Of a DNA stretch of 20,502 bases, positions 4,157 through 18,568 are shown one piece after another. A model generated the notes under the pieces. That model worked only from the letters and a program-made list of their open reading frames with translations. It was not told the DNA's origin and searched no databases. Position 1 is the first letter of the stretch, and the number at the start of each line of letters is the position of its first letter. The stretch is from a virus: the IMG/VR virus record IMGVR_UViG_3300036780_000407, positions 1 through 20,502 of that record. One strand, 5' to 3'. The position numbers were made by a program, and so were the translations under genes.

Positions 4157-4579
4157 CTAGGAATTGTAAACTATGGTATACGCCTGCTCAATCAAATAGA
4201 CGACGCTCGTTTCCCCGGCGTCTTCATTCGCTTCGTTGTTCTCGTCTTCGCTCTCAAAGAACACGCCTTGCACCCGAATCCCTGCAACTGTTCCAGGCAT
4301 GGCAACCATGGCAGACTTTACCAAGGCCGCAAGATTTGCACAGTTGCCATATTGCGTCGCGTCGCCAGCGGTCAACGTTGTTATGCGAACCTTTTGCGTC
4401 ACAAGGCCGCTCGGTCCATCAAAACATTCGTCGTCTTCTTCATCGTCGCCAGCATATACAATCTGCGGATACAGCTTGCCGATTTCCGACGATCGCTCGG
4501 GTACTATTCCGCCGACTGCGGCAGATGAGACGGGCGAATTGCCGGCCAGAGTCGCATAGATTGCCTTGCCGATTATCAT
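4157..4579 (-). CDS. Tail terminator/tail completion protein (gp17/DUF3168-like)
   Basis: A 140-residue protein that starts IGKAIYATLAGNSPV and contains KLYPQIVY, a layout typical of tail completion proteins that cap the tube and join it to the head. An acidic loop (DDEEDDE, about residues 45-51) and a second one (ESEDENNE) are unusual insertions. The start overlaps the stop of the gp10-like gene as ATGA (4579-4576), and the ribosome site is AAGGGG at 4586-4591. Its position before the tail tube supports the role. Confidence 0.78.
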   Translation of the reverse strand: MIIGKAIYATLAGNSPVSSAAVGGIVPERSSEIGKLYPQIVYAGDDEEDDECFDGPSGLVTQKVRITTLTAGDATQYGNCANLAALVKSAMVAMPGTVAGIRVQGVFFESEDENNEANEDAGETSVVYLIEQAYTIVYNS

Positions 4580-5058
4580 CCGCCGCCCCTTATCTGCGCG
4601 TCCAGGCTTTCCGTGAACTTTGCAACCGCACCCTCTTTTCGACTATCGAACGCGTGAAGCATGAAATGTTTGCCGGGCACAAACCTGCGACCCTTCAAAA
4701 TGCTGATCGCGTGATATGCGGCCTTCGCGTCGAGTCCCTTGAGATTCTTTAAGCTCGCCGGCCGCTTACCGGTAAAATGTCCCTGCTCAACAAATGCCCC
4801 GTAGTACGATTTTCCTACAAAATTCTTAATACCCAAAACGATTCGCAGTACTATGGAACCCTTGCGACCCTTGCCGCCGGCAATGCGAAGCGACTTTCGG
4901 ACGAGTCCCGTCTTTGCCGGGGCGTTAGCTTTCGCCTGCTGTAGAATGAGTTTCATCCCGTCGCGGCCGGCCTTGCGAACATACTTTTTTTGAACCTTCT
5001 CTGAAAGCGATTTAAGTTTATCGCCAACTTCTCGCAGCCCATGCACAGTAACGCTCAT
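4576..5058 (-). CDS. HK97 gp10-like head-tail/neck protein
   Basis: A 160-residue basic protein. The family acts at the head-tail interface or in tail completion. The sequence has VHGLREVGDKLKSL, then KAGRDGMKLILQQAKANAP and TGLVRKSLR, the usual pattern of the HK97 gp10 family, and near its end GKHFMLHAFDSRKE. The ATG at 5058 is preferred to an upstream TTG at 5079 because it makes an ATGA overlap with the preceding head closure gene, a coupling also used by its neighbours. Confidence 0.85.
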   Translation of the reverse strand: MSVTVHGLREVGDKLKSLSEKVQKKYVRKAGRDGMKLILQQAKANAPAKTGLVRKSLRIAGGKGRKGSIVLRIVLGIKNFVGKSYYGAFVEQGHFTGKRPASLKNLKGLDAKAAYHAISILKGRRFVPGKHFMLHAFDSRKEGAVAKFTESLDAQIRGGG

Positions 5059-5381
5059 GTCTTCACTATTTCCGTGCAATAGAAATCAAGTTCGCGGTTG
5101 CGTTCCAGTTCATTGACGACGGCTTTAATCGTGAACGTCCGGCCTTTATAGTTAATCTCAAAAGTCGGCAGGACGCCAGCAATGTATCGCGTCGTTATTT
5201 TGTGGGTAACACTCGCGGCGAATGTGCGGGCGTATTCCAGTTGCCGCCCCGTCTGCGGCTCGATCATCGCCCAAACCTTAGCAAACGCCGGATATGTGAC
5301 CGGCTTCCCACCGAATGCGTCTGGCGTTCCAGGCGTCGGCTTGTTGATCGTCACGTAATGCCGAAGCTTGCCGCCATTCAT
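5055..5381 (-). CDS. Head closure/head-tail joining protein
   Basis: A 108-residue beta-rich protein. It begins GGKLRHYVTINKPTPGTPDAFGG and continues with VWAMIEPQTGRQLEYA, a close fit to the phage head-tail joining family (SPP1 gp16-like). These proteins seal the portal channel after packaging. A canonical GGAGG lies ten bases before the ATG at 5381, and the start overlaps the adaptor gene stop as ATGA. Confidence 0.88.
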   Translation of the reverse strand: MNGGKLRHYVTINKPTPGTPDAFGGKPVTYPAFAKVWAMIEPQTGRQLEYARTFAASVTHKITTRYIAGVLPTFEINYKGRTFTIKAVVNELERNRELDFYCTEIVKT

Positions 5382-6034
5382 GCCGCAAATGCCTCCCGGA
5401 ACATAAGCGATTCCAACAGCGTGCGAAGCCCGTACGGCAGTTCGGTTTGATTCCGACCGACCCCCAAATCCCGGTTCTCATAGTAGTGAGCTACAAGCCA
5501 GCGAATCGCACGGCCAAAGCGAAGCGGTACAGCCGTCGCGGAAGCGTAGCCGCACGTAAAATCGATATAGACGCTGCCCGGCTCATTGTCCGCAGTCGGC
5601 CATTGCTGCCCATCATTCAACACAACCCTTCCCGGCATGCTGTTTACGTCAACCGTATAGAGCGACGGCGAAAGAACCGTTGGCGTGCCATCAAGTAGAT
5701 ACGTGACAGCCGACACGGATTGCAGGGGCGGCGTGCGGATCGGGATGTAACGCGATGGAATCGGCGCATCCAAGTTCGGCGCGAGATTGATAACCGACGA
5801 CTGATTAAAGATAACCGGATCGTTGGCCGGGAAGCCGTCCAGGTACATCCGCTTAACCGCCGTCATCATCTGTTGGCCGGTTTCGGTTTCGATGAAGTCG
5901 CATGCGTCGTACATGATATCATCGATAACATCATCTTCGCTGTCATCGGTGATACGCAGATAGCCTTTAACTTGATCCAAGGTGATTGGACAAGAATTGG
6001 CCGGCGGCTGCGTTGTGACAACACTACTTCGCAT
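5378..6034 (-). CDS. Head-tail connector adaptor (gp6-like)
   Basis: A 218-residue protein. The first half, with ITLDQVKGYLRITDDSEDDV followed by acidic helices (IMYDACDFIETETGQQ), is the signature of gp6/phiE125 gp8-type adaptor proteins that dock under the portal as a dodecameric ring. The second half is beta-rich. A second candidate start, TTG at 6046, lies four codons earlier. The ATG at 6034 overlaps the end of the small capsid-adjacent gene by 11 bases. The start therefore remains slightly uncertain. Confidence 0.87.
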   Translation of the reverse strand: MRSSVVTTQPPANSCPITLDQVKGYLRITDDSEDDVIDDIMYDACDFIETETGQQMMTAVKRMYLDGFPANDPVIFNQSSVINLAPNLDAPIPSRYIPIRTPPLQSVSAVTYLLDGTPTVLSPSLYTVDVNSMPGRVVLNDGQQWPTADNEPGSVYIDFTCGYASATAVPLRFGRAIRWLVAHYYENRDLGVGRNQTELPYGLRTLLESLMFREAFAA

Positions 6035-6212
6035 TGCGCGTTTCAAGCCTCGTTTTCACTGTGGCCGTCTCGGCAACCTTGCCCGTGTACCGAATCGCTC
6101 CGCCGTCTGTAATCTTCTTTTTCGCGACGGCGTCGGAGACGTCGATGACGTCCCCTTTATTTTGGTTCACGTTCCCCACTAATTGGGGCCGCGTCAAAAC
6201 AATTTTAATCAT
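6024..6212 (-). CDS. Small capsid-adjacent protein
   Basis: A 62-residue protein with VGNVNQNKGDVIDVSDAVAKKKI followed by GGAIRYTG. Small SH3-like proteins of this form (KGDxIDV-SDxxAxxxIxxGxA) commonly sit immediately after the major capsid gene and may decorate or stabilise the head; the role is inferred. No ribosome site is visible before the ATG at 6212. A strong inverted repeat fills the gap to the capsid gene. Confidence 0.7.
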   Translation of the reverse strand: MIKIVLTRPQLVGNVNQNKGDVIDVSDAVAKKKITDGGAIRYTGKVAETATVKTRLETRNAK

Positions 6213-6223
6213 GGTGTATAGAC

Positions 6224-6257
6224 GGACGGCCGGCGTCCCCCACTACGCCGGCCGTCC
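6224..6257. other. 12-bp perfect inverted repeat after the capsid gene
   Basis: GGACGGCCGGCG at 6224-6235 pairs with CGCCGGCCGTCC at 6246-6257 around a 10-base loop. It lies between the major capsid stop and the next start. There is no T-run on the exit side, so it may be a factor-assisted terminator or an mRNA 3'-end stabiliser that lets the capsid message outnumber downstream messages. The structure is seen directly; the role is inferred. Confidence 0.75.
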
Positions 6258-6280
6258 AATTCCCTTTGAAATAAACCGGA

Positions 6281-7690
6281 TTATCCGGCAAGCATATCAG
6301 TGATGGCCGCGAAGCTGGCGGCGTGCCGAAGTTGGAAATCGGCATCCTGCAACGCCACGATGCGAACGCTGCCGGTATTGGAATTGCTGTAGGGGTCAAC
6401 CAGGATATCCAGGCCGCCCCACATGGCATACACGGCGTCATTGAAGTTGCCGAAGATGCACGCGGAGCAATCGCCGGAGCTTGTCCCCTTTGTCAAGGTC
6501 CACGGCACGTTGTTGGAAGTCAGCGCCCGATAGCCGTTCATTTCGCCAACGGCCATTCCATCGGGCTGCACGGGGCCGGTTTCCCAAATGTAGGTGGCGT
6601 TGGCGACGCTGTTTTTCAGAGTCGTCTTGAGCAACCCGCGAACCTTGGAATTGCTGATATAGGCGAGCGTGCCAACGTCGGCATTGGCGACGGCGACGGC
6701 GGTTTCAAGTGCCACGACATTGGCAAAGGTGACAGTCGCGCTGCCGTTGGTGCCCAGGGCAACCGAACCGATTCCCGACTGTTGCAGGATGCCGGTAGGC
6801 TGATTGCTGGAACCGCTGCCGTTGATGCCGGCCCGGTCCAATTCAATCGCCAGAATACGGGTAAGATCGTCGCGGACAAGTCCTTCCGCCGACAGGCTCG
6901 ATTGCAACATCAGCTTGCGGCTGATATCGGTGTACGCGCCCAGCGTATTCGGATTGAACGTAACCTGTCCGACTGCCTGAGCCGACGCGGTAGGCGCAGC
7001 TTCATCGGCCACCCAATAAGCCGTACCGCCGCCGGTTTGCTTCGGCAGTGCGAGACTGCCGACGATTTCGGTAAGGTAACGCGTGCCCGCCTGTGACATG
7101 CACATCCGGTTACGCAGCAACTCAATAAAGTTGCTCACGTCCAGAATCGTCGGGATTCCGCCCGCGCCGGTGGACGTGTTGAACGTCCGGCGTTCCATGC
7201 GGGTGAAGTCAATGCCGGTGGGCAGGTGCGAAGGGAAGTAAAAACCCTTGGCCGGCTCGCCGGATCGCTTTTCCAGTTCCTTGCTTACTTCACCTTCGAT
7301 GCCGTCCAACGGGCGCTTGTCGGCCAGCGTGCGGATGGCGCGGAGAAGGGAATACCGCCGAAGGTCTTTCGTCGCGAAGCCGTCAACCTTGTTGCGTTCG
7401 GTGATCGGCTTTTCCGGGTCCTCATTCTCACTGCCCAAGCCTTCACCCAGGGCCGGGCGTCCGGGCAAGGCGCGATTTTCCCCGCCGGGAAGCTTCGCGG
7501 CCTCAGCGGCCTGATTCAACCGCTCGATGTGCTTTTCCAGGGCCGTGCATTCGACGCGAAGTTGCTCAAAAAGAGTGATTTCTTCGGCGGTATTGTCCCG
7601 CTTTTCCGTCGCGGCCTTGTCCAAAATGGTGGCCATGCTGGCGGCCTTAGCGGCGCGTTCCTCATTTGCAGCCTTGATCTTCTTCCACAT
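6281..7690 (-). CDS. Major capsid protein, HK97 fold
   Basis: A 469-residue protein. Residues 1-110 or so are charged and helical (WKKIKAANEERAAKAASM, LEKHIERLNQAAEAAK) and match the delta/scaffold domain that the protease removes. The mature part carries family hallmarks: YWVADEAAPTASAQAVGQVT, LGAYTDISRKLMLQSS, and ELDRAGINGSGSSNQPTGIL. The ATG at 7690 has AAAGGGG ten bases upstream, inside the last codons of the protease gene. This should be the most abundant protein in the virion. Confidence 0.97.
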   Translation of the reverse strand: MWKKIKAANEERAAKAASMATILDKAATEKRDNTAEEITLFEQLRVECTALEKHIERLNQAAEAAKLPGGENRALPGRPALGEGLGSENEDPEKPITERNKVDGFATKDLRRYSLLRAIRTLADKRPLDGIEGEVSKELEKRSGEPAKGFYFPSHLPTGIDFTRMERRTFNTSTGAGGIPTILDVSNFIELLRNRMCMSQAGTRYLTEIVGSLALPKQTGGGTAYWVADEAAPTASAQAVGQVTFNPNTLGAYTDISRKLMLQSSLSAEGLVRDDLTRILAIELDRAGINGSGSSNQPTGILQQSGIGSVALGTNGSATVTFANVVALETAVAVANADVGTLAYISNSKVRGLLKTTLKNSVANATYIWETGPVQPDGMAVGEMNGYRALTSNNVPWTLTKGTSSGDCSACIFGNFNDAVYAMWGGLDILVDPYSNSNTGSVRIVALQDADFQLRHAASFAAITDMLAG

Positions 7691-7691
7691 G

Positions 7692-8396
7692 TTAAACTGT
7701 CCCCTTTGGAATGAGAAAACGCATCGCGATATTGCGGCGTTCGTTGAATTTCGGTTCTGGTTTGTTTAAACGCTGGACTGTGGCAATAACCGCCGGGTCA
7801 ACCCGAATACTCAGGTCTGTTCCGCGATACGCCGGATTGGAAACGATTGAAACTTCGCCGATTTGTGCAGTTTTGACGGTACGGGTAAGAACCCCGGCCG
7901 AATTGTCCCACGATTCCCCGCCGGAAGGCACATTGAAGCCAAACGACATCTTTTTGATGTCGCCACGGCCAATCAGGGCCATCATATCGCGAGCGTACGA
8001 CGTATCGGGAACGTCGCACTCAAAAGCAAGGCCCTTGTCATCTTCGTGAAGCCGCAAAGTGCCGTTTGAAGTCCGACCCAGAAGCTTATCGGGGTCGTGA
8101 GAAAATAGCGCCCGGATGTCCGCGCCGCCTGAAAGCGTTTCGCGGAATGCACCCGGCGCAAGAATCTCGCGGAACCCGCCTAAATCTTCGGATGGGGAAT
8201 TAAAAACGGCCGCATACCCACCAATTTTGGCGGATTTACCATCCGCGCCAGCAATGGAGCGTAGGTCAATCGCGGTAATCGTTCTTAGTTCAATTCCCCC
8301 CACAATCCTATTTTCGCCATCATTTAGCGAAATATGAAATAATTCCGGGAATTTTCTGAAAAAGCCTCCGAATAGCCTATTGACTAACCTAGGCAA
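7692..8396 (-). CDS. Prohead maturation protease (HK97 gp4/S78 family)
   Basis: A serine protease that cleaves scaffold and capsid delta domains during head maturation. With the TTG start at 8396 it has 234 residues. The family core is clear: GYAAVFNSPSEDLGGF, then catalytic His100 in LFSHDPDKLLGR, and Ser151 in KKMSFGF, with Glu181 in IGEVSIVSNPAYRG. The start is doubtful. The TTG lies within the plus-strand promoter region, and a GTG at 8303 just before GGIELRT would give a 203-residue protein that still holds the whole domain. A G-run (GGGGGGA) directly before codon 35 has no usable start after it. It is separated from its expected upstream neighbour, the portal gene, by the plus-strand cassette. 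Confidence 0.93.
   Translation of the reverse strand: MPRLVNRLFGGFFRKFPELFHISLNDGENRIVGGIELRTITAIDLRSIAGADGKSAKIGGYAAVFNSPSEDLGGFREILAPGAFRETLSGGADIRALFSHDPDKLLGRTSNGTLRLHEDDKGLAFECDVPDTSYARDMMALIGRGDIKKMSFGFNVPSGGESWDNSAGVLTRTVKTAQIGEVSIVSNPAYRGTDLSIRVDPAVIATVQRLNKPEPKFNERRNIAMRFLIPKGTV
7764..7771. repeat. GTTTAAAC palindrome, copy 3
   Basis: An exact copy in the 3' part of the protease coding sequence. The flank on the right is GC, the most common one. Confidence 0.9.
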
Positions 8397-8582: not shown

Positions 8583-9320
8583 ATGACTCGCACCCAAGCA
8601 ATCAACGAACTGAATCTGCCGGCCAATTGGGCGGGCGATATGGCGGAACTGAAAAAAGCCTATCGGGCGGCATGCTTGAAAAGCCATCCGGACAAGGGCG
8701 GATCGGCCATAGCGTTTAAACGCACGTCGGACGCCTACGCGATCCTGTCCGGCAATCAAGCCGCGACGGCGACGGCGCAACCCGCGCCCAAGCCGCAACC
8801 GGCCCCGAAGGTGAAAGCCTACGGCAATCCGAAAATCAGCCGGGAGGATTGGCTTCATACCGCCTATGCCCATGTTGAGGCTCATGCGAAGTTGGCCGGC
8901 ATTGATATTCCATCGATTCGCCTGAGCGTCGGCTATGGCTTTGCGGGCCGGCGGAATACCAAAGGATGGGAAGTCGTCAAGAAAACCCGCGACAACGTCC
9001 CCCAAGCTTTCGTATCGCCCACGCTGGACGATGCCGCCGACGTTCTGCCGGCCTTGATTGCCGCGACGGGGAAGATTGCGGGCAAAGATGTTGCCGCCGG
9101 CCTGGAAGCGATTTGGACGATTGCCGGAAGCGAAGTCGCAAAGGCGATGGGCAAATATCCCCACGCCGCCGCCAATGACCTGAAAACCAATAAGCCACAG
9201 ACCACGCGACTGCTAAAAGTCGTTTGCCCGGCTTGCGGATACGTCGTACGCGTATCCGCGAAGTGGGCACAAGTCGGCATGCCGAAGTGCTGCTGTGGCA
9301 CGAAAATGAAATTAGCCTAA
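8583..9320 (+). CDS. J-domain protein fused to SprT-like region and zinc ribbon
   Basis: A 245-residue protein. Residues 1-58 form a J-domain with the HPD triad at 35-37 (KSHPDKGG), which in this family stimulates Hsp70/DnaK. A Pro/Ala linker (about 60-80) follows. Residues 85-205 (RLSVGYGFAGRR, VPQAFVSPTLDDAADVLPAL, KYPHAA, QTTRLLKVVCPACGY) resemble phage and plasmid SprT-like proteins. Residues 214-245 form a zinc ribbon with Cys215, Cys218 and the 236-238 Cys cluster. The HExxH metalloprotease motif expected after 'DVLPALI' is absent and the segment looks shortened, so the peptidase should be inactive. The product may recruit DnaK to a bound target. The family assignment of the middle region is from memory of the pattern. 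Confidence 0.78.
   Translation: MTRTQAINELNLPANWAGDMAELKKAYRAACLKSHPDKGGSAIAFKRTSDAYAILSGNQAATATAQPAPKPQPAPKVKAYGNPKISREDWLHTAYAHVEAHAKLAGIDIPSIRLSVGYGFAGRRNTKGWEVVKKTRDNVPQAFVSPTLDDAADVLPALIAATGKIAGKDVAAGLEAIWTIAGSEVAKAMGKYPHAAANDLKTNKPQTTRLLKVVCPACGYVVRVSAKWAQVGMPKCCCGTKMKLA
8714..8721. repeat. GTTTAAAC palindrome, copy 4 (full 12-bp form)
   Basis: This copy lies inside the J-domain coding region and has the full symmetric form GCGTTTAAACGC, the best match to the extended consensus of the set. Confidence 0.9.
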
Positions 9321-9355
9321 ACCCTAAACCCCTCACTCGAAAGGAAAGAATTCCA

Positions 9356-9943
9356 ATGTCGAACCTATCCAAACATGCCGGGACAGAGCTATCCGCCGCC
9401 GCAAAGGCTCTTGCGGCTTATCAAGCCGCTCGCGGACTTGCCCCGGCTGTATCGAATCTTGCAACGCATGCGCCCGGCCTCGCGATCCTGGCTGATTGCA
9501 GTGGGAGCATGAGAGAAATTGCCGTGAAGCGACAGACGCGGGAAGGAATGCTGCGGCAAGCCTTGTCAGACCTGTGGCCGGTATTGACCGGCGCGAAGCT
9601 GATCGGATTCAATGGACAATGCGAAGTCGTCGCAAGCCCGGCGTCGTTGCCGCAATCGTACGGGACGACGGACCTGGCGCAAGCCATTCGCACCGCCAAG
9701 GGCGCTACGGCGATTCTCGTTATCTCGGACGGGCAACCGAATGATATGCATGAAGCTTACGCCGCCGCGAAGGAATGCGGTTGCCCGATCTCAGTTCTAT
9801 TCGTCGGCAATCCAGACGACGACATGGCGATACAGTTTATGAAAGAACTGGCGAAGCGAACTGGCGGGAAGTGCGAAGCGAAAGACTTGCGAAAGCTCGC
9901 ATCGCCGCTGAAAGAGACGATTAAGGGACTACTGCCGGGATGA
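9356..9943 (+). CDS. VWA domain protein with complete MIDAS site
   Basis: A 195-residue protein. The start is the ATG at 9356, preceded by AAAGGAAAG; a longer frame would run back over the J-domain gene. An N-terminal helical segment (1-40) leads into a von Willebrand A fold. The metal site is intact: D47-x-S49-x-S51 in LADCSGSM, Thr104/105 in YGTTDLAQAI, and Asp125 in VISDGQPND. Such domains bind a protein partner through Mg2+ and usually work with an ATPase or chaperone. Here the natural partner is the J-domain protein 35 bases upstream. There is no signal peptide or membrane segment, so it is cytoplasmic. The exact family is unknown. Confidence 0.85.
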   Translation: MSNLSKHAGTELSAAAKALAAYQAARGLAPAVSNLATHAPGLAILADCSGSMREIAVKRQTREGMLRQALSDLWPVLTGAKLIGFNGQCEVVASPASLPQSYGTTDLAQAIRTAKGATAILVISDGQPNDMHEAYAAAKECGCPISVLFVGNPDDDMAIQFMKELAKRTGGKCEAKDLRKLASPLKETIKGLLPG

Positions 9944-9945
9944 GC

Positions 9946-9953
9946 GTTTAAAC
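9946..9953. repeat. GTTTAAAC palindrome, copy 5
   Basis: Located two bases after the VWA stop codon and three bases before the strong hairpin at 9957. The left flank is GC and the right flank AG. Confidence 0.9.
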
Positions 9954-9956
9954 AGT

Positions 9957-9983
9957 CGGGCGGCAAGAATCTCTTGCCGCCCG
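9957..9983. terminator. 12-bp perfect hairpin after the VWA gene
   Basis: CGGGCGGCAAGA (9957-9968) pairs perfectly with TCTTGCCGCCCG (9972-9983) around ATC. It is very stable and lies between the VWA and XRE-type genes. No T-run follows on either strand, so it is not a standard intrinsic terminator; a factor-assisted terminator, processing site or RNA stabiliser acting in both directions is possible. Structural-operon transcription running antisense through the cassette would meet it as well. Confidence 0.6.
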
Positions 9984-10008
9984 GCTTGCCCGAAAGTGAG
10001 ATATCGCC

Positions 10009-10221
10009 ATGATCGACGCAATGATTCTTGAGGCAATCAAAAAGGAAATCGGCCGCCGAAACTGGAACGCCTACAAACTCGCCGAGGCGGTAGGGGGGTT
10101 GGACGGAAGCAAAGATTCCGTCTATCGATTCCTTCGCGGCGAACGCGACATAAGATCATCAACCCTTGAACTGATTTTCAAGGTGCTGGAACTGGAAATC
10201 AAGCCGACAAAAAAAGCTTAA
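10009..10221 (+). CDS. Small XRE-type helix-turn-helix protein
   Basis: A 70-residue protein. IKKEIGRRNWNAYKLAEAVG followed by GSKDSVYRFLRGERDIRSST is a compact Cro/XRE helix-turn-helix: the second and third helices are KLAEAVG and KDSVYRFLRGE. There is no extra domain. AAAGTGAG lies about ten bases before the ATG at 10009; a second ATG at 10021 is possible. It is the last cassette gene and ends tail-to-tail with the portal gene, the stop codons sharing TTAA at 10218-10221. It could regulate the cassette promoter or the structural operon (inference). Confidence 0.8.
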   Translation: MIDAMILEAIKKEIGRRNWNAYKLAEAVGGLDGSKDSVYRFLRGERDIRSSTLELIFKVLELEIKPTKKA

Positions 10222-11524: not shown

Positions 11525-13132
11525 TCACAAAACAATCAGATTCGGATTGCTATTAACGTACAACTCGCCATTCCCGCCGCCCTGCATATGACAATAAATC
11601 GCCATCAATAACGCCGCGATGCCGTCTATCTTTGACCGGCTACGTTTCTTGTTGATGCTGTAATTATTTGCCTTGTCAATATCGACAACAACATTCGACG
11701 CATGCCATCTAAGTATCGGATGGCCGCTGTGACGAATCCGCGACGCCTTTAGCAGCTTTTCCAGTTCTTTCGCCGGCAAATCCTGCGAAGCCCACCCTTG
11801 GCCGGCCGGGAAGACGTTGAAACCGTCTTCAATCAAATCCAATTCAAGTTGCTGGCCTTGAAATTTTCGATCTATCGATAGTTGCCGAATCGGCGTTTCG
11901 CCGTGGATCTCCCTGGCACGCTTGCGAATGACGGCATAATCGACCACGTTCCCCGGCGTTAAAGTTAACAGTCCCTTTTTTGCCCATGCTCGATAGGGTA
12001 CTTTGTGCTTTCGCTCCAACGCATCAATGTTCAATTCCGGCAAAAAGAAATGCGGCACAATATCCACGCCGCCCAACTCATTGCCGAAAGTCTGTACCAG
12101 TGCCGTCGTGTCGTCTGTCGCGGACAAATCCAAGCCAACATCGCACGTTTTGCCGGCGTATGGCAACGGCTCTGCGGCGCAGCTATCCCAATGATCCATC
12201 GATAACCACGCGTCGGCGGCTTGCACCCATTGATTCAAGCGATACCGCCGAAAAGAATTCTCTTTGGCCGGCGAATCCCTCGCCTCTTCATACGCCTTGC
12301 GAAATGCCTCCAAGGGAATCGTCACGCCGAGCGACGGATTGGCCTTGTGCCACGTTTCTTCTTTCGCCCAATCGTCTTTGTTGCTCGCCTCTGCGATGTA
12401 CACAAAGAAATCTGTGGCGATACGCTCGCCACTCAATATCTGCTTTGCGTACTGGTACTGTTCCCCGCAAATCGTTTCCAGGTCGCCGCCGGCCGTCGTG
12501 ATTGACAGCAACAACGGTTGCTCGCGTGCCGCGCCAGCGTAGCGCAGGCAGTCCCAAAGCTCGCGGCCCTTCTGCGCGTGCAGCTCATCGAACAAAATGC
12601 CGTGAGCGTTCAACCCCTCTTTGGTATTCACTTCCGCAGACAACGCTTTGATGAACGCGCCCCGCGGGCCGAAGATGGTTTTTACCGAATCTTTCGGCGT
12701 CAATGCCGACTCTAACGCTCTACTCTTTCGCACCATCTTCGCGGCTTCTCGATAGATGATGCTGGCTTGATCCCGATCCGCCGCCGCAATGAACACTTCC
12801 GCCGACTCTTCGCGATCCGCCAGAGCCAAATAGATGCCAATGCCGGCCAATAGCGTTGATTTGCCGTTCTTTTTGGCGACTTCAATAAAGCCGACGCTGA
12901 ATCGCCGCATGCCATCGGCGCGTTTCCAGCCGAACAGCGGGGCGATGATGTATTCCCACTGCCAAGCTAGAAGAATGAACGGCTTGCCGGAAAATTTCCC
13001 CGTTGTGTGCCGGATGAACTTTCCAAAGAACTCGCGGACCCTTTCCGCTGCCGCCAAATCGAAATAACAGCCGTCTTTAACCGCCTGCTCATCTGATTTG
13101 GTGCGAATCCATCGCGGGTCTACTTGATTCAC
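11525..13132 (-). CDS. terL: Terminase large subunit (HK97-type)
   Basis: The packaging motor and nuclease, 535 residues from the GTG at 13132. This start is chosen because AAAGGGGACGGGGAAG precedes it directly; the longest frame begins 30 codons earlier but would overlap the 62-residue gene much more. Walker A is VAKKNGKST (about 85-93) and Walker B ILFDELHA with Asp-Glu at 182-183. The coupling motif ITTAGGD follows. The RNase H-like nuclease begins at DVGLDLSATDDT (from 331) and includes IDRKFQGQQ and, near the end, KIDGIAALLMA. It packages DNA into the prohead through the portal encoded next. Confidence 0.96.
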   Translation of the reverse strand: MNQVDPRWIRTKSDEQAVKDGCYFDLAAAERVREFFGKFIRHTTGKFSGKPFILLAWQWEYIIAPLFGWKRADGMRRFSVGFIEVAKKNGKSTLLAGIGIYLALADREESAEVFIAAADRDQASIIYREAAKMVRKSRALESALTPKDSVKTIFGPRGAFIKALSAEVNTKEGLNAHGILFDELHAQKGRELWDCLRYAGAAREQPLLLSITTAGGDLETICGEQYQYAKQILSGERIATDFFVYIAEASNKDDWAKEETWHKANPSLGVTIPLEAFRKAYEEARDSPAKENSFRRYRLNQWVQAADAWLSMDHWDSCAAEPLPYAGKTCDVGLDLSATDDTTALVQTFGNELGGVDIVPHFFLPELNIDALERKHKVPYRAWAKKGLLTLTPGNVVDYAVIRKRAREIHGETPIRQLSIDRKFQGQQLELDLIEDGFNVFPAGQGWASQDLPAKELEKLLKASRIRHSGHPILRWHASNVVVDIDKANNYSINKKRSRSKIDGIAALLMAIYCHMQGGGNGELYVNSNPNLIVL

Positions 13133-13277
13133 CTTCCCCGTCCCCTTTTGCGATGAATCGTAGGTATCGAACGCCGTCCCGCTCGATAATATCGACCCGC
13201 TCGATAGCCGATCCGGGGTCAAGTCGGACGATGGAAACGACGAGCGTTTCCTTTATCTCGCGGATTTCTCCCGACAT
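13089..13277 (-). CDS. Small protein between the terminase genes
   Basis: A 62-residue protein starting at ATG 13277, two bases after the small terminase stop, and overlapping the start of the large terminase by 44 bases. It begins SGEIREIKETLVVSIVRLD and continues with IERVDIIERDGVRYLRFIA, a plausible two-strand fold. It has no recognised family. The tight placement suggests translational coupling and a role linked to packaging, but this is inference. Confidence 0.6.
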   Translation of the reverse strand: MSGEIREIKETLVVSIVRLDPGSAIERVDIIERDGVRYLRFIAKGDGEGESSRPAMDSHQIR

Positions 13278-13279
13278 AC

Positions 13280-13747
13280 TCAGGTTTTCCCGTTGTCGAG
13301 AAATTCATTCAACTCATCGGCCGGCGACGCAGGCGGCTTGGCCGACAGTCGCACGCGATCCGCCGGAGTCAATCCAAACACCGCAGCAAGCTTGCGGATA
13401 TTTTCACTCGCCTTGTTGGCGATATTGATCCACACGGAAGGAATTTCGATTCCTTGCGGCGTAACCTGCGTCTCGCCTTTGACCGCAATCATGCTAACGG
13501 CTTTGTCGTACAGGGCGCATGCTTGGCAGTATCGCACCATGGCGTCAAGGTCTATTCCAGTCATGAGGCCCAGGCGGTCAAGCTCTGGAACAACGCGACG
13601 CCAAACCGCCTTCGCCTCTTTCGATAGATGCTTCGGGCACTTCGGCGCGCCAGTCTGCGGCTTCGGCTCGCTGGCGTTCAATGGCCGATGGCCGGGGTTG
13701 CCCTGAGCAATCTTAAGTGCGGTCGGTTTCGGTTTTCTCCCCTTCAC
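13280..13747 (-). CDS. terS: Terminase small subunit, P27 family
   Basis: A 155-residue DNA-recognition subunit of the packaging enzyme. The N-terminus (GRKPKPTALKIAQGNPGHRP, then LNASEPKP) is the diagnostic P27-family signature, followed by the helical region with LSKEAKAVWRRVVPELDRLG. The start is a GTG at 13747. The G-run ribosome site (AGAGGGG) lies further upstream than usual because a GTTTAAAC palindrome sits between it and the start. Confidence 0.94.
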   Translation of the reverse strand: MKGRKPKPTALKIAQGNPGHRPLNASEPKPQTGAPKCPKHLSKEAKAVWRRVVPELDRLGLMTGIDLDAMVRYCQACALYDKAVSMIAVKGETQVTPQGIEIPSVWINIANKASENIRKLAAVFGLTPADRVRLSAKPPASPADELNEFLDNGKT

Positions 13748-13775: not shown

Positions 13776-14333
13776 TCAATCCACCGTCGCTTCAAAGATA
13801 TTGCCCTCATCTTCCGGGCATGACTCCCAGCGAGGCGCATCATCGTGCGGATGGCCGCCGTCAAGGTCCATGAATTCGGCGATATCGTTTTTGCCTGTCG
13901 CACGATCCGGCACGCACCATACAGACGCATGGAAATGGTAGACGCCAGGAACGTGCAGTTTGATATGGCCGGGATTGCAGCTTAGCAGCACAATCACCCG
14001 ACCCGGATACAACGCGCGATACTTCGCGGCGATATCATCGGCAGTTTGCAAATGCTTGCCGTCTGCCTGAATGATCCATCGGCCTTGTTCCAGGTCGCCG
14101 CCATGTGCGAGTATCGCAACAGCGGACGGAAACCGCCTCGCGACTTCGCGTTGCCATGCAACGGCGTACGGCTCAAGGGAAGGGTCCAGCACTTCCATGA
14201 TGACGCCGGGGCCGGCGACGTAATCGCTATGAACTGGCGCGGGCACGGAATCGCGTTCCGCCATAATTCCGATGAAACAGCAAAATCCAAGAATGCCGAG
14301 AATGAAAGCGAAGGCTAAAATATAATCTTTCAT
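13776..14333 (-). CDS. Membrane-anchored protein with HGG and SCNPG motifs, possibly caspase-like
   Basis: A 185-residue protein. The ATG at 14333 is favoured: it overlaps the fibre gene stop as ATGA and has GGGG seven bases upstream. Residues 5-24 form an N-terminal membrane anchor (ILAFAFILGILGFCCFIGIM). The rest has a hydrophobic strand ending in His77-Gly-Gly (AVAILAHGG), then RYP-type spacing and a second strand ending in Cys119 (VIVLLSCNPG), then GVYHFHASVWCVPD, and a conserved-looking end (RWESCPEDEGNIFE). Strand-His-Gly followed by strand-Cys is the layout of caspase-fold (CHAT, gingipain-like) peptidases. I recall similar proteins of unknown function but cannot name the family. The tail operon context may be accidental. 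Confidence 0.6.
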   Translation of the reverse strand: MKDYILAFAFILGILGFCCFIGIMAERDSVPAPVHSDYVAGPGVIMEVLDPSLEPYAVAWQREVARRFPSAVAILAHGGDLEQGRWIIQADGKHLQTADDIAAKYRALYPGRVIVLLSCNPGHIKLHVPGVYHFHASVWCVPDRATGKNDIAEFMDLDGGHPHDDAPRWESCPEDEGNIFEATVD

Positions 14334-15517
14334 ACCCATTCCCCGATAAGGTTTCCAAGGTTCAACGTCGTTGCCGTCGTTGTCGAGAAATAATTGCTTG
14401 AGCCGGTAGGCGTCGCCCAGGAATAATTTGCCGACTGTAGCAACGCGATACTGAATGATCCGCTGCCGTCACTCGTCACAGATACATCCGTCAACTGATA
14501 CTTCACGCGAAACGTGACGACAGCATTTGGAACGGCCACGCCTTGCTGATTGATCGTCTTGCCCGATACAACCGTCTGCCCGGCCGCCGGGATGATCGGC
14601 GATGACGCCGCCGGGCCGGTTATCGTTTGTGCAGTTGTCCCGCTTACGGTTACTGCCGTCACGGGGAAGACAACTCCGGCCGTTGCCTGAGCCGTCAAGG
14701 TGTACATACCATTCGGCAGTCCGAACGTCGCCACGCCGCTGCTATTCGCCTGTCCGCTCCCTTGGCCGGCCACGGTGTACGGGACGTTGGCGACGGGATT
14801 GTTGTTTGAATCGACAAAGGTAATGGTGACAGGTGACGGGCCGGTGATTCCCGAAACCAATCGGCCATACGCATCGCCGGTTTGATTCACGTCCGCGCTC
14901 GTCCACGCCGAAGAAACCACATTCCAGGCTTTTGACCACGCCGCCGCGATTGTTGCCGCCGTGCCAGTGATTGCCGATCCGAGGATGTACTTCCAATCGA
15001 CCAACGGCACGCCCGTTACGTTTGGCGCGGGAATCGTTCCGCCCGCCCATTTCGTAGTATTCACGCCGCTCGCCACAGTGCCGACGATGGGTTGGTTATT
15101 CCCATCGACAGTGACCGCCTGTCCGTCCCACGCCGCCACACTTACGGCGGGAAGATTATCTTGCGTCGATAGCTGCCACTGGTTGACCGAAGCGGGTACG
15201 TTGCCGTTGCCGTTGATGACATTCGCCCAGCGCTTTGAGTCCAGCACCCACGGCCCGAAGGTAACGCCTGTCGCAACCCCGCCGACTGTCGCGGCGATGG
15301 ATAGTCCGACCGAATCGCCAGCGACATAACCGACCGGAATGGTGAAGACGGCTTTGTATCGCCCGGTCCCTGTATTGGTAACGGTGACAGTCACGGTTCC
15401 GTCATCCGTTCCGTTGTGCGTGCAAATGCCCGTCGTGCTGTCGGCATTCGCGAGCGCGCCGGTGATGCTTACCACGTCAAAGGTCTGAATCAGACTGTCG
15501 CCGGGAATGTAACTCAT
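14330..15517 (-). CDS. Tail fibre/appendage protein with Ig-like domain
   Basis: A 395-residue protein rich in Gly, Ser, Thr and Val with very few charged residues. Residues 1-110 or so form a beta-rich head-like module. A Trp-rich middle segment follows (WSKAWNVVSSAWTSADVNQTGDAYGRL). The C-terminal half holds Ig or carboxypeptidase-regulatory-like repeats: ITFVDSNNNPVANVPYTV with ATFGLPNGMYTLTAQAT, then INQQGVAVPNAVVTFRVKY. Such domains are frequent on virion surfaces and bind carbohydrate. The start (15517) overlaps the LamG gene stop as TAATG. It is likely part of a receptor-binding or decoration structure. Confidence 0.72.
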   Translation of the reverse strand: MSYIPGDSLIQTFDVVSITGALANADSTTGICTHNGTDDGTVTVTVTNTGTGRYKAVFTIPVGYVAGDSVGLSIAATVGGVATGVTFGPWVLDSKRWANVINGNGNVPASVNQWQLSTQDNLPAVSVAAWDGQAVTVDGNNQPIVGTVASGVNTTKWAGGTIPAPNVTGVPLVDWKYILGSAITGTAATIAAAWSKAWNVVSSAWTSADVNQTGDAYGRLVSGITGPSPVTITFVDSNNNPVANVPYTVAGQGSGQANSSGVATFGLPNGMYTLTAQATAGVVFPVTAVTVSGTTAQTITGPAASSPIIPAAGQTVVSGKTINQQGVAVPNAVVTFRVKYQLTDVSVTSDGSGSFSIALLQSANYSWATPTGSSNYFSTTTATTLNLGNLIGEWV

Positions 15518-18000: not shown

Positions 18001-18327
18001 TTATTGAACGCTTCGGCGAATCTCGGCGAGTTGTTCCATGGTAAGCTCATTGATTCCCTTTACTTTCAAGTTCGCCGATAGCAGATCATGGCATCGCCTG
18101 CACACTGGACGCCGGTTAGATGGTTCGTATGGTTCCCCGCCGTCTTGAATCGGAATCTTATGATCTATGATGGAAGCGGGTCGGTCGCAGAACGCACACT
18201 CGGGATGTTGTTGCAGTTCTATTTCCCGCTGCCTTTGATGCCGCCGGCCATAGTGGCGTTTGTCAGTGTTCGGCCTCGCCTCTGACAATGGCACGCGTTG
18301 CTTGTGAGACTTCGCTTTGATGGGCAT
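18001..18327 (-). CDS. HNH endonuclease
   Basis: A 108-residue nuclease. The order of elements is Cys44-x2-Cys47 (CAFC), Asp55-His56 in IIDHKIPIQDGG, Asn71, and Cys76-x2-Cys79-His80 (CRRCHD): a complete zinc-stabilised beta-beta-alpha metal site. In HK97-like phages such stand-alone HNH proteins help the terminase cut DNA at the packaging site. Here four fibre-type genes and the caspase-like gene separate it from the terminase genes. AAGG precedes the ATG at 18327. The gene overlaps its upstream neighbour by 65 bases. Confidence 0.9.
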   Translation of the reverse strand: MPIKAKSHKQRVPLSEARPNTDKRHYGRRHQRQREIELQQHPECAFCDRPASIIDHKIPIQDGGEPYEPSNRRPVCRRCHDLLSANLKVKGINELTMEQLAEIRRSVQ

Positions 18328-18568
18328 GTTCTGCCTTCATGTCGTTAAGCTTTTCGTCGATGGAAACAATCTTGTCATGATCGGCGGCGACAGTGGCAAT
18401 CAGCGAATCGATTTGCTTTGTCTGCTGATCTTGAGTGATCTTGAGTTGCTGATATGCGGAATTTACGGTGAGCATTACACTGCAAACCGTCAAGGCAAGG
18501 GTAATGATATTATCGACGCCAATAACGCCAAAAATCTTTTTCTCATTACGCGCCGACTTCATTACCAT
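18263..18568 (-). CDS. Membrane protein with coiled coil, holin- or spanin-like
   Basis: A 101-residue protein. A short basic N-terminus precedes one transmembrane helix (about 17-38, VDNIITLALTVCSVMLTV). A charged coiled coil follows (QLKITQDQQTKQIDSL, KIVSIDEKLNDMKAEH). This topology fits XhlA-like lysis accessory proteins or inner-membrane spanins, but there is no endolysin in the window to confirm a lysis cassette. The ATG at 18568 has AAGGGGG four bases away. Confidence 0.55.
   Translation of the reverse strand: MVMKSARNEKKIFGVIGVDNIITLALTVCSVMLTVNSAYQQLKITQDQQTKQIDSLIATVAADHDKIVSIDEKLNDMKAEHAHQSEVSQATRAIVRGEAEH

Follow-up and report, generated by a model that had tools for sequence, protein, structure and literature searches.

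We identified a 185-residue protein, encoded in a virus record of 20,502 bases (the whole stretch analysed, hereafter the window), which on balance we read as a trimmed, exported, membrane-anchored CHAT-like cysteine peptidase that is made late and acts on an envelope protein. The gene is real, more than a chance reading frame, and its His/Cys pair is kept by four relatives. We infer the fold, the peptidase activity, a topology of N-in/C-out, expression late in infection, what is cut and what the phage gains from it. Sequence comparison makes CHAT the best lead, at a level of support that is moderate and falls short of proof. The main rivals are a metal-binding or unrelated α/β protein and a catalytically dead CHAT-fold binder.

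A conserved gene among virion and packaging genes

The open reading frame runs on the minus strand from an ATG at 14333 to a stop at 13778-13776 (Table 1), bearing out the frame called by the first-pass annotation, which had given no strand. A second in-frame ATG lies two codons before it, at 14339, and the plus strand across 13776-14333 is interrupted by stops. Numbered from ATG 14333, His77 falls in AVAILAHGGD and Cys119 in VIVLLSCNPGH, the motifs that had originally been claimed. The window gene and its L001 relative differ at positions 1/2/3 in 25/16/59% of codons, with dN of 0.26 and dS of 2.7, which together indicate a protein under purifying selection.

Four relatives were found, all on IMG/VR contigs of uncultured phages and 37-68% identical. 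Later scans with other patterns yielded no additional family members, and there were no relatives in INPHARED, PLSDB or GTDB species genomes, with the limit that both GTDB scans used patterns, drawn from the window alone or together with L001, and could miss distant cellular copies. Matches to the pattern HGGD...CNPG in L005, L006, L008 and L009 were due to chance, as were GNIFEF matches in L019-L027, except for L021, which is the L004 contig again.

The ATG of the candidate overlaps the TGA stop of the preceding fibre-like gene (ATGA, in the context GTATGA), and because of this overlap the two genes are probably translationally coupled. Its reported location between fibre and terminase genes holds, with the fibre identity a putative one, and the remaining window is an HK97-type tailed-phage virion block comprising portal, head maturation protease, major head protein, head-tail connectors, major tail protein and tape measure. 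All five copies lie within virion or packaging gene blocks, in a slot that varies: 3' of the fibre-like gene and 5' of the terminase small subunit in the window; about 2.4 kb past a related fibre-like gene, behind a tail protein, on L001; with the terminase large subunit on one side and portal-like genes on the other on both L004 and L014; and amid repeated virion-like genes, beside an integrase, on L012. As in the window, the L014 copy has a start that overlaps the stop of the preceding gene. This pattern would fit a late-expressed accessory (moron-like) gene.

Other features of these contigs are recorded here in their own right. Within the minus-strand virion cluster of the window, between portal and head maturation protease, lies a short plus-strand gene block (8583-10221) encoding a DnaJ-domain protein (E = 4e-7) and proteins with weak von Willebrand A-like and Cro/C1-type HTH matches. 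The fibre-like genes of the window (14330-15517) and of L001 (199-2556) have a common segment (VT.TFVDSN..PVANVPYTVAGQGSGQA...) followed by differing C termini, as if their tips had been swapped. The minus strand at 18263-18568, possibly the lysis region of the phage, encodes a 101-residue protein that has a single hydrophobic segment and weakly matches an Rz-like spanin (phrog_7686, E = 0.003). Adjoining the L001 relative is a gene for a 146-residue protein (5580-6020) that matches a PHROG labelled 'enoyl-CoA hydratase/carnithine racemase-like' (E = 7e-16), possibly a mislabelling, as the motifs GGYCHAAIRF and FCSECA resemble a small cysteine hydrolase. On L004, three separate HNH/endonuclease VII-type homing-nuclease-like reading frames (4170-4568, 6604-7290 and 7226-7984) lie amid the packaging genes over 4170-7984.

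Table 1 Coordinates of the candidate gene, its parts, its neighbours and its relatives (window positions unless a contig is named).
Feature	Position	Strand	Basis or remark
Candidate gene for a CHAT-like protein of 185 aa with N-terminal anchor	13776..14333	-	ORF, relatives and selection
N-terminal hydrophobic segment, residues 5-27, signal anchor or signal sequence	14253..14321	-	Hydropathy; helix in low-confidence model
Predicted strand with HGGD, residues 72-80	14094..14120	-	Strand in model; H77, G78 and D80 invariant
Proposed catalytic His77	14103-14105	-	On CHAT His at lowered alignment threshold
Predicted strand and CNPGH, residues 113-125	13959..13997	-	C119, N120, P121, G122 and H123 invariant
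Proposed nucleophile Cys119	13977-13979	-	Aligned to CHAT catalytic Cys
ASVWCVPDRA segment, residues 136-145	13899..13928	-	W139 and D143 invariant; matches CHAT SLWxVxD
Fibre-like virion gene	14330..15517	-	Putative identity; CarboxypepD_reg match just below Pfam cut-off
Terminase small subunit (TerS), next gene downstream of candidate	13280..13747	-	Terminase_4, E = 2e-22; phrog_83
Terminase large subunit (TerL)	11525..13222	-	Downstream of candidate
Relative L001	4998-5564		68% identical to window protein
Relative L012	5001-5579		43% identical to window protein
Relative L004	3628-4164		39% identical to window protein
Relative L014	5001-5480		37% identical to window protein

Protein architecture and invariant residues

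Hydropathy analysis agreed with the N-terminal anchor of the first-pass annotation insofar as the N terminus is strongly hydrophobic in all five members, each of which has its hydropathy maximum there. In the window protein, the best 19-residue Kyte-Doolittle window scored 2.76, from residue 5, with nothing comparable after residue 45; the segment of L014 is the weakest of the five and more like a cleavable signal peptide. Beyond this segment, the members have a common order, consisting of a strand, a helix with WxxExARRF, a strand ending in HG and two short strands, followed by a helix, a strand ending in C119-N-P-G-H and the W139/D143 segment. A stretch that varies between members then leads to a conserved tail with GxIxE. 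In every member, HG follows one hydrophobic strand and CxxG follows another.

Conservation of His77 and Cys119 in homologues had been proposed as a check, and both proved invariant in all five known members. No other Cys than Cys119 is invariant, and no other His than H77 and H123, within a set that includes W60, E63, A65, R66, R67, F68, A71, H77, G78, D80, G84, P110, R112, V115, L116, C119, N120, P121, G122, H123, V131, W139, D143, P173, G177, I179 and E181.

The invariant H123, D80 and D143 could instead form a metal site. The protein would then be a metal-binding or other non-peptidase exported α/β protein, with His77, Asp80, Cys119 and His123 as ligands (HxxD and CxxxH) and a likeness to clan CD that is convergent or due to chance, and to this we give a minor though appreciable probability. 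D80 and H123 are indeed as invariant as H77 and C119, no significant fold match was found and clan CD enzymes are not known to need a His at position +4 of the Cys. However, a metal site would not be expected to show the HG and CxxG contexts, the His-Cys spacing or a segment that matches CHAT SxWxVxD in register.

Profile resemblance to CHAT domains

Searches with single members, alignments and consensus gave no significant Pfam, PHROG, NCBIfam, PADLOC or PDB sequence match. In particular, no member scored above the Pfam curated cut-off for CHAT (PF12770), which had no match in the phage records, and Pfam scans gave no match to Peptidase C14 (PF00656), gingipain C25, clostripain C11 or C13 (PF01650). 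As yardsticks, we took from PLSDB records 16 CHAT domains and 7 domains of the bacterial caspase family; these were located with consensus queries, and the comparisons were made with the database sequences alone.

Using hhalign, the phage family scored 27.6 against the 16 CHAT domains (E = 0.0021 for one comparison, probability 13%), above the peak of 22.5 among 150 column-shuffled versions and the maximum of 24.7 among 400 unrelated ORFs. Scored individually among those 400, the ORFs of the five family genes, some of which were represented by repeat copies of one stretch, took ranks 2, 3, 4, 12, 14, 16 and 133 of 407; the top rank went to an unrelated ORF that no single member outscored. HMMER with a CHAT model of 8 sequences did not separate the family from noise. 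The suggested comparison with metacaspases stayed at noise level, the score against the 7 bacterial caspase-family (C14) domains (15.5) lying within that of shuffled versions. CHAT was the only compared family with a detectable profile resemblance, which speaks for the original proposal, but the resemblance is weak and PF12770 itself is unmatched.

The alignment to CHAT places RVIVLLSCNPGHIKL on ELVVLSACNTGRGKI, which holds the catalytic Cys, and GVYHFHASVWCVPDRAT on GVPSTVVSLWSVPDAPT, the SxWxVxD segment, such that SVWCVPD of the phage protein falls on SLWxVxD in register with Cys119 on the catalytic Cys. His77 also falls on the CHAT His once the alignment threshold is lowered. When members were aligned singly, the Cys register was kept by all five and the His register also by L004.

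His and Cys are 42 residues apart in the window protein and 42-45 across the five members. Published spacings are 42 in caspase-7 (His144/Cys186; PMC4357240), 42 in the CRISPR TPR-CHAT protease (H585/C627; PMC9729208), 43 in Csx29 (PMC10028731) and 46 in YabG (PMC12445089), and most of the fetched CHAT domains have 40-49. The phage proteins show the CHAT pattern, in which some 40-49 residues separate strand-HG from strand-[AS]CxxG, with S, C, S, A or M preceding the Cys; for the [A/S]-Cys motif, L012 has A-C exactly at the site. The SxWxVxD feature after the catalytic Cys is present too, with W139 and D143 invariant, but the Trp follows the Cys by 20 residues compared with 32-34 in CHAT domains, as if the stretch between the Cys and Trp strands had been deleted.

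With CHAT proteins (PF12770, for example TPR-CHAT/Csx29 of type III-E CRISPR), the phage protein has in common the HG strand, the CxxG strand and their spacing, a TAxEI-like segment before the Cys strand and an SxWxVPD segment after it. It differs in its shorter Cys-to-Trp distance, in a core of about 145 residues versus 289 Pfam positions, in having an N-terminal membrane anchor and no TPR, and in escaping detection by the Pfam model.

Predicted fold

In the clan CD fold, His ends β3 and Cys ends β4, a small sheet lies between β3 and α3, and the peptidases reviewed all have at least six strands (PMC4357240). We modelled residues 40-185 with AlphaFold from the five sequences (mean pLDDT 64, pTM 0.63), leaving out of our conclusions a first model from two sequences (pLDDT 52). 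The predicted order in this medium-confidence model is β1-α1-β(H77)-two short strands-α-β(C119)-β, which agrees with caspases around the dyad, apart from β2/α2. Residues after about 139 fall below pLDDT 50, and the C-terminal third is unreliable. One β-α unit precedes the His strand, compared with the minimal 2-1-3-4 sheet and α1-α3 of clan CD; fewer than six strands are confident and the β2-α2 unit is not seen.

Foldseek with this model returned no match at E ≤ 0.001. Caspase-7 and CED-3 were in the PDB list at a non-significant E of about 1, and the best BFVD row was an entomopoxvirus caspase-like protein (E = 0.39, likewise not significant); for a caspase fold these rows are a hint and no more. 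The caspase-like reading first proposed is partly supported, by the invariant His/Cys pair, its spacing of 42-45 and the weak CHAT resemblance.

Comparison with MEROPS clan CD (caspase C14, clostripain C11, legumain C13, gingipain C25 and the proposed YabG) reveals the same His-then-Cys order, a His-Gly-(X)n-[A/S]-Cys style motif and, as modelled at medium confidence, a similar strand order around the proposed dyad, the differences being the structural gaps above and the noise-level C14 score. PIG-K/GPI8-type C13 peptidases probably share with the phage protein an HGGD after the His strand, but they are eukaryotic, of other size and setting, and PF01650 is unmatched.

Against the peptidase reading stand the lack of a significant family or structure match and the missing β2-α2 unit and Cys-to-SxW stretch. 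We do not file the protein as a member of CHAT or clan CD, because it falls below the curated score, has less than the full minimal sheet and gives no significant fold match. On the peptidase reading, it would nevertheless act in the manner of a clan CD peptidase.

A second rival is a catalytically inactive CHAT-fold binder or scaffold (for example, a membrane-anchored receptor or channel blocker) acting without proteolysis, which we rate slightly below a metal-binding protein. Pseudo-enzymes do occur among caspase-like families (pseudo-orthocaspases, PMC6426788), and the phage core is smaller than the reviewed clan CD peptidases with their six or more strands (PMC4357240). Yet even the relative with 37% identity keeps the two proposed catalytic residues, which are invariant across the family, unlike pseudo-variants, in which the His-Cys pair is replaced (PMC6426788).

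Exported late phage proteins are often lysis proteins, and the next gene in L001 encodes a small cysteine-hydrolase-like protein, but a signal-anchored hydrolase outside clan CD that serves lysis or acts on peptidoglycan is improbable given that there is no lysis-family match and that the five copies lie outside any recognisable lysis cassette.

Possible role and significance

As a CHAT-like peptidase, the protein would be made together with the late (virion) genes and held at the membrane, with His77 activating Cys119 at the ends of two neighbouring strands. Its substrate would be a specific protein, of either host or phage origin, in the periplasm or on the outer face of the inner membrane, and cleavage might, for example, alter the envelope before lysis or block competing phages. 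The first-pass annotation had named envelope or defence proteins as targets, which is speculation; the anchor favours an envelope target.

CHAT and caspase-type peptidases in bacteria have been discussed largely as components of systems for anti-phage defence and cell death. Phage records very rarely contain recognisable copies, with one CHAT-like and one C14-like match in 50,697 records searched with consensus queries. It is conceivable, though we hold it as the doubtful case, that the five proteins represent a previously undescribed family of caspase-fold peptidases in minimal form, encoded by phages, exported and derived from a stripped CHAT domain, a bacterial defence-type enzyme turned into a phage tool in the host envelope. 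If true, such a pared-down, secreted form would show the fold to be usable by a phage against its host and not just in the host's favour, in a small enzyme whose activity would rest on two testable residues.
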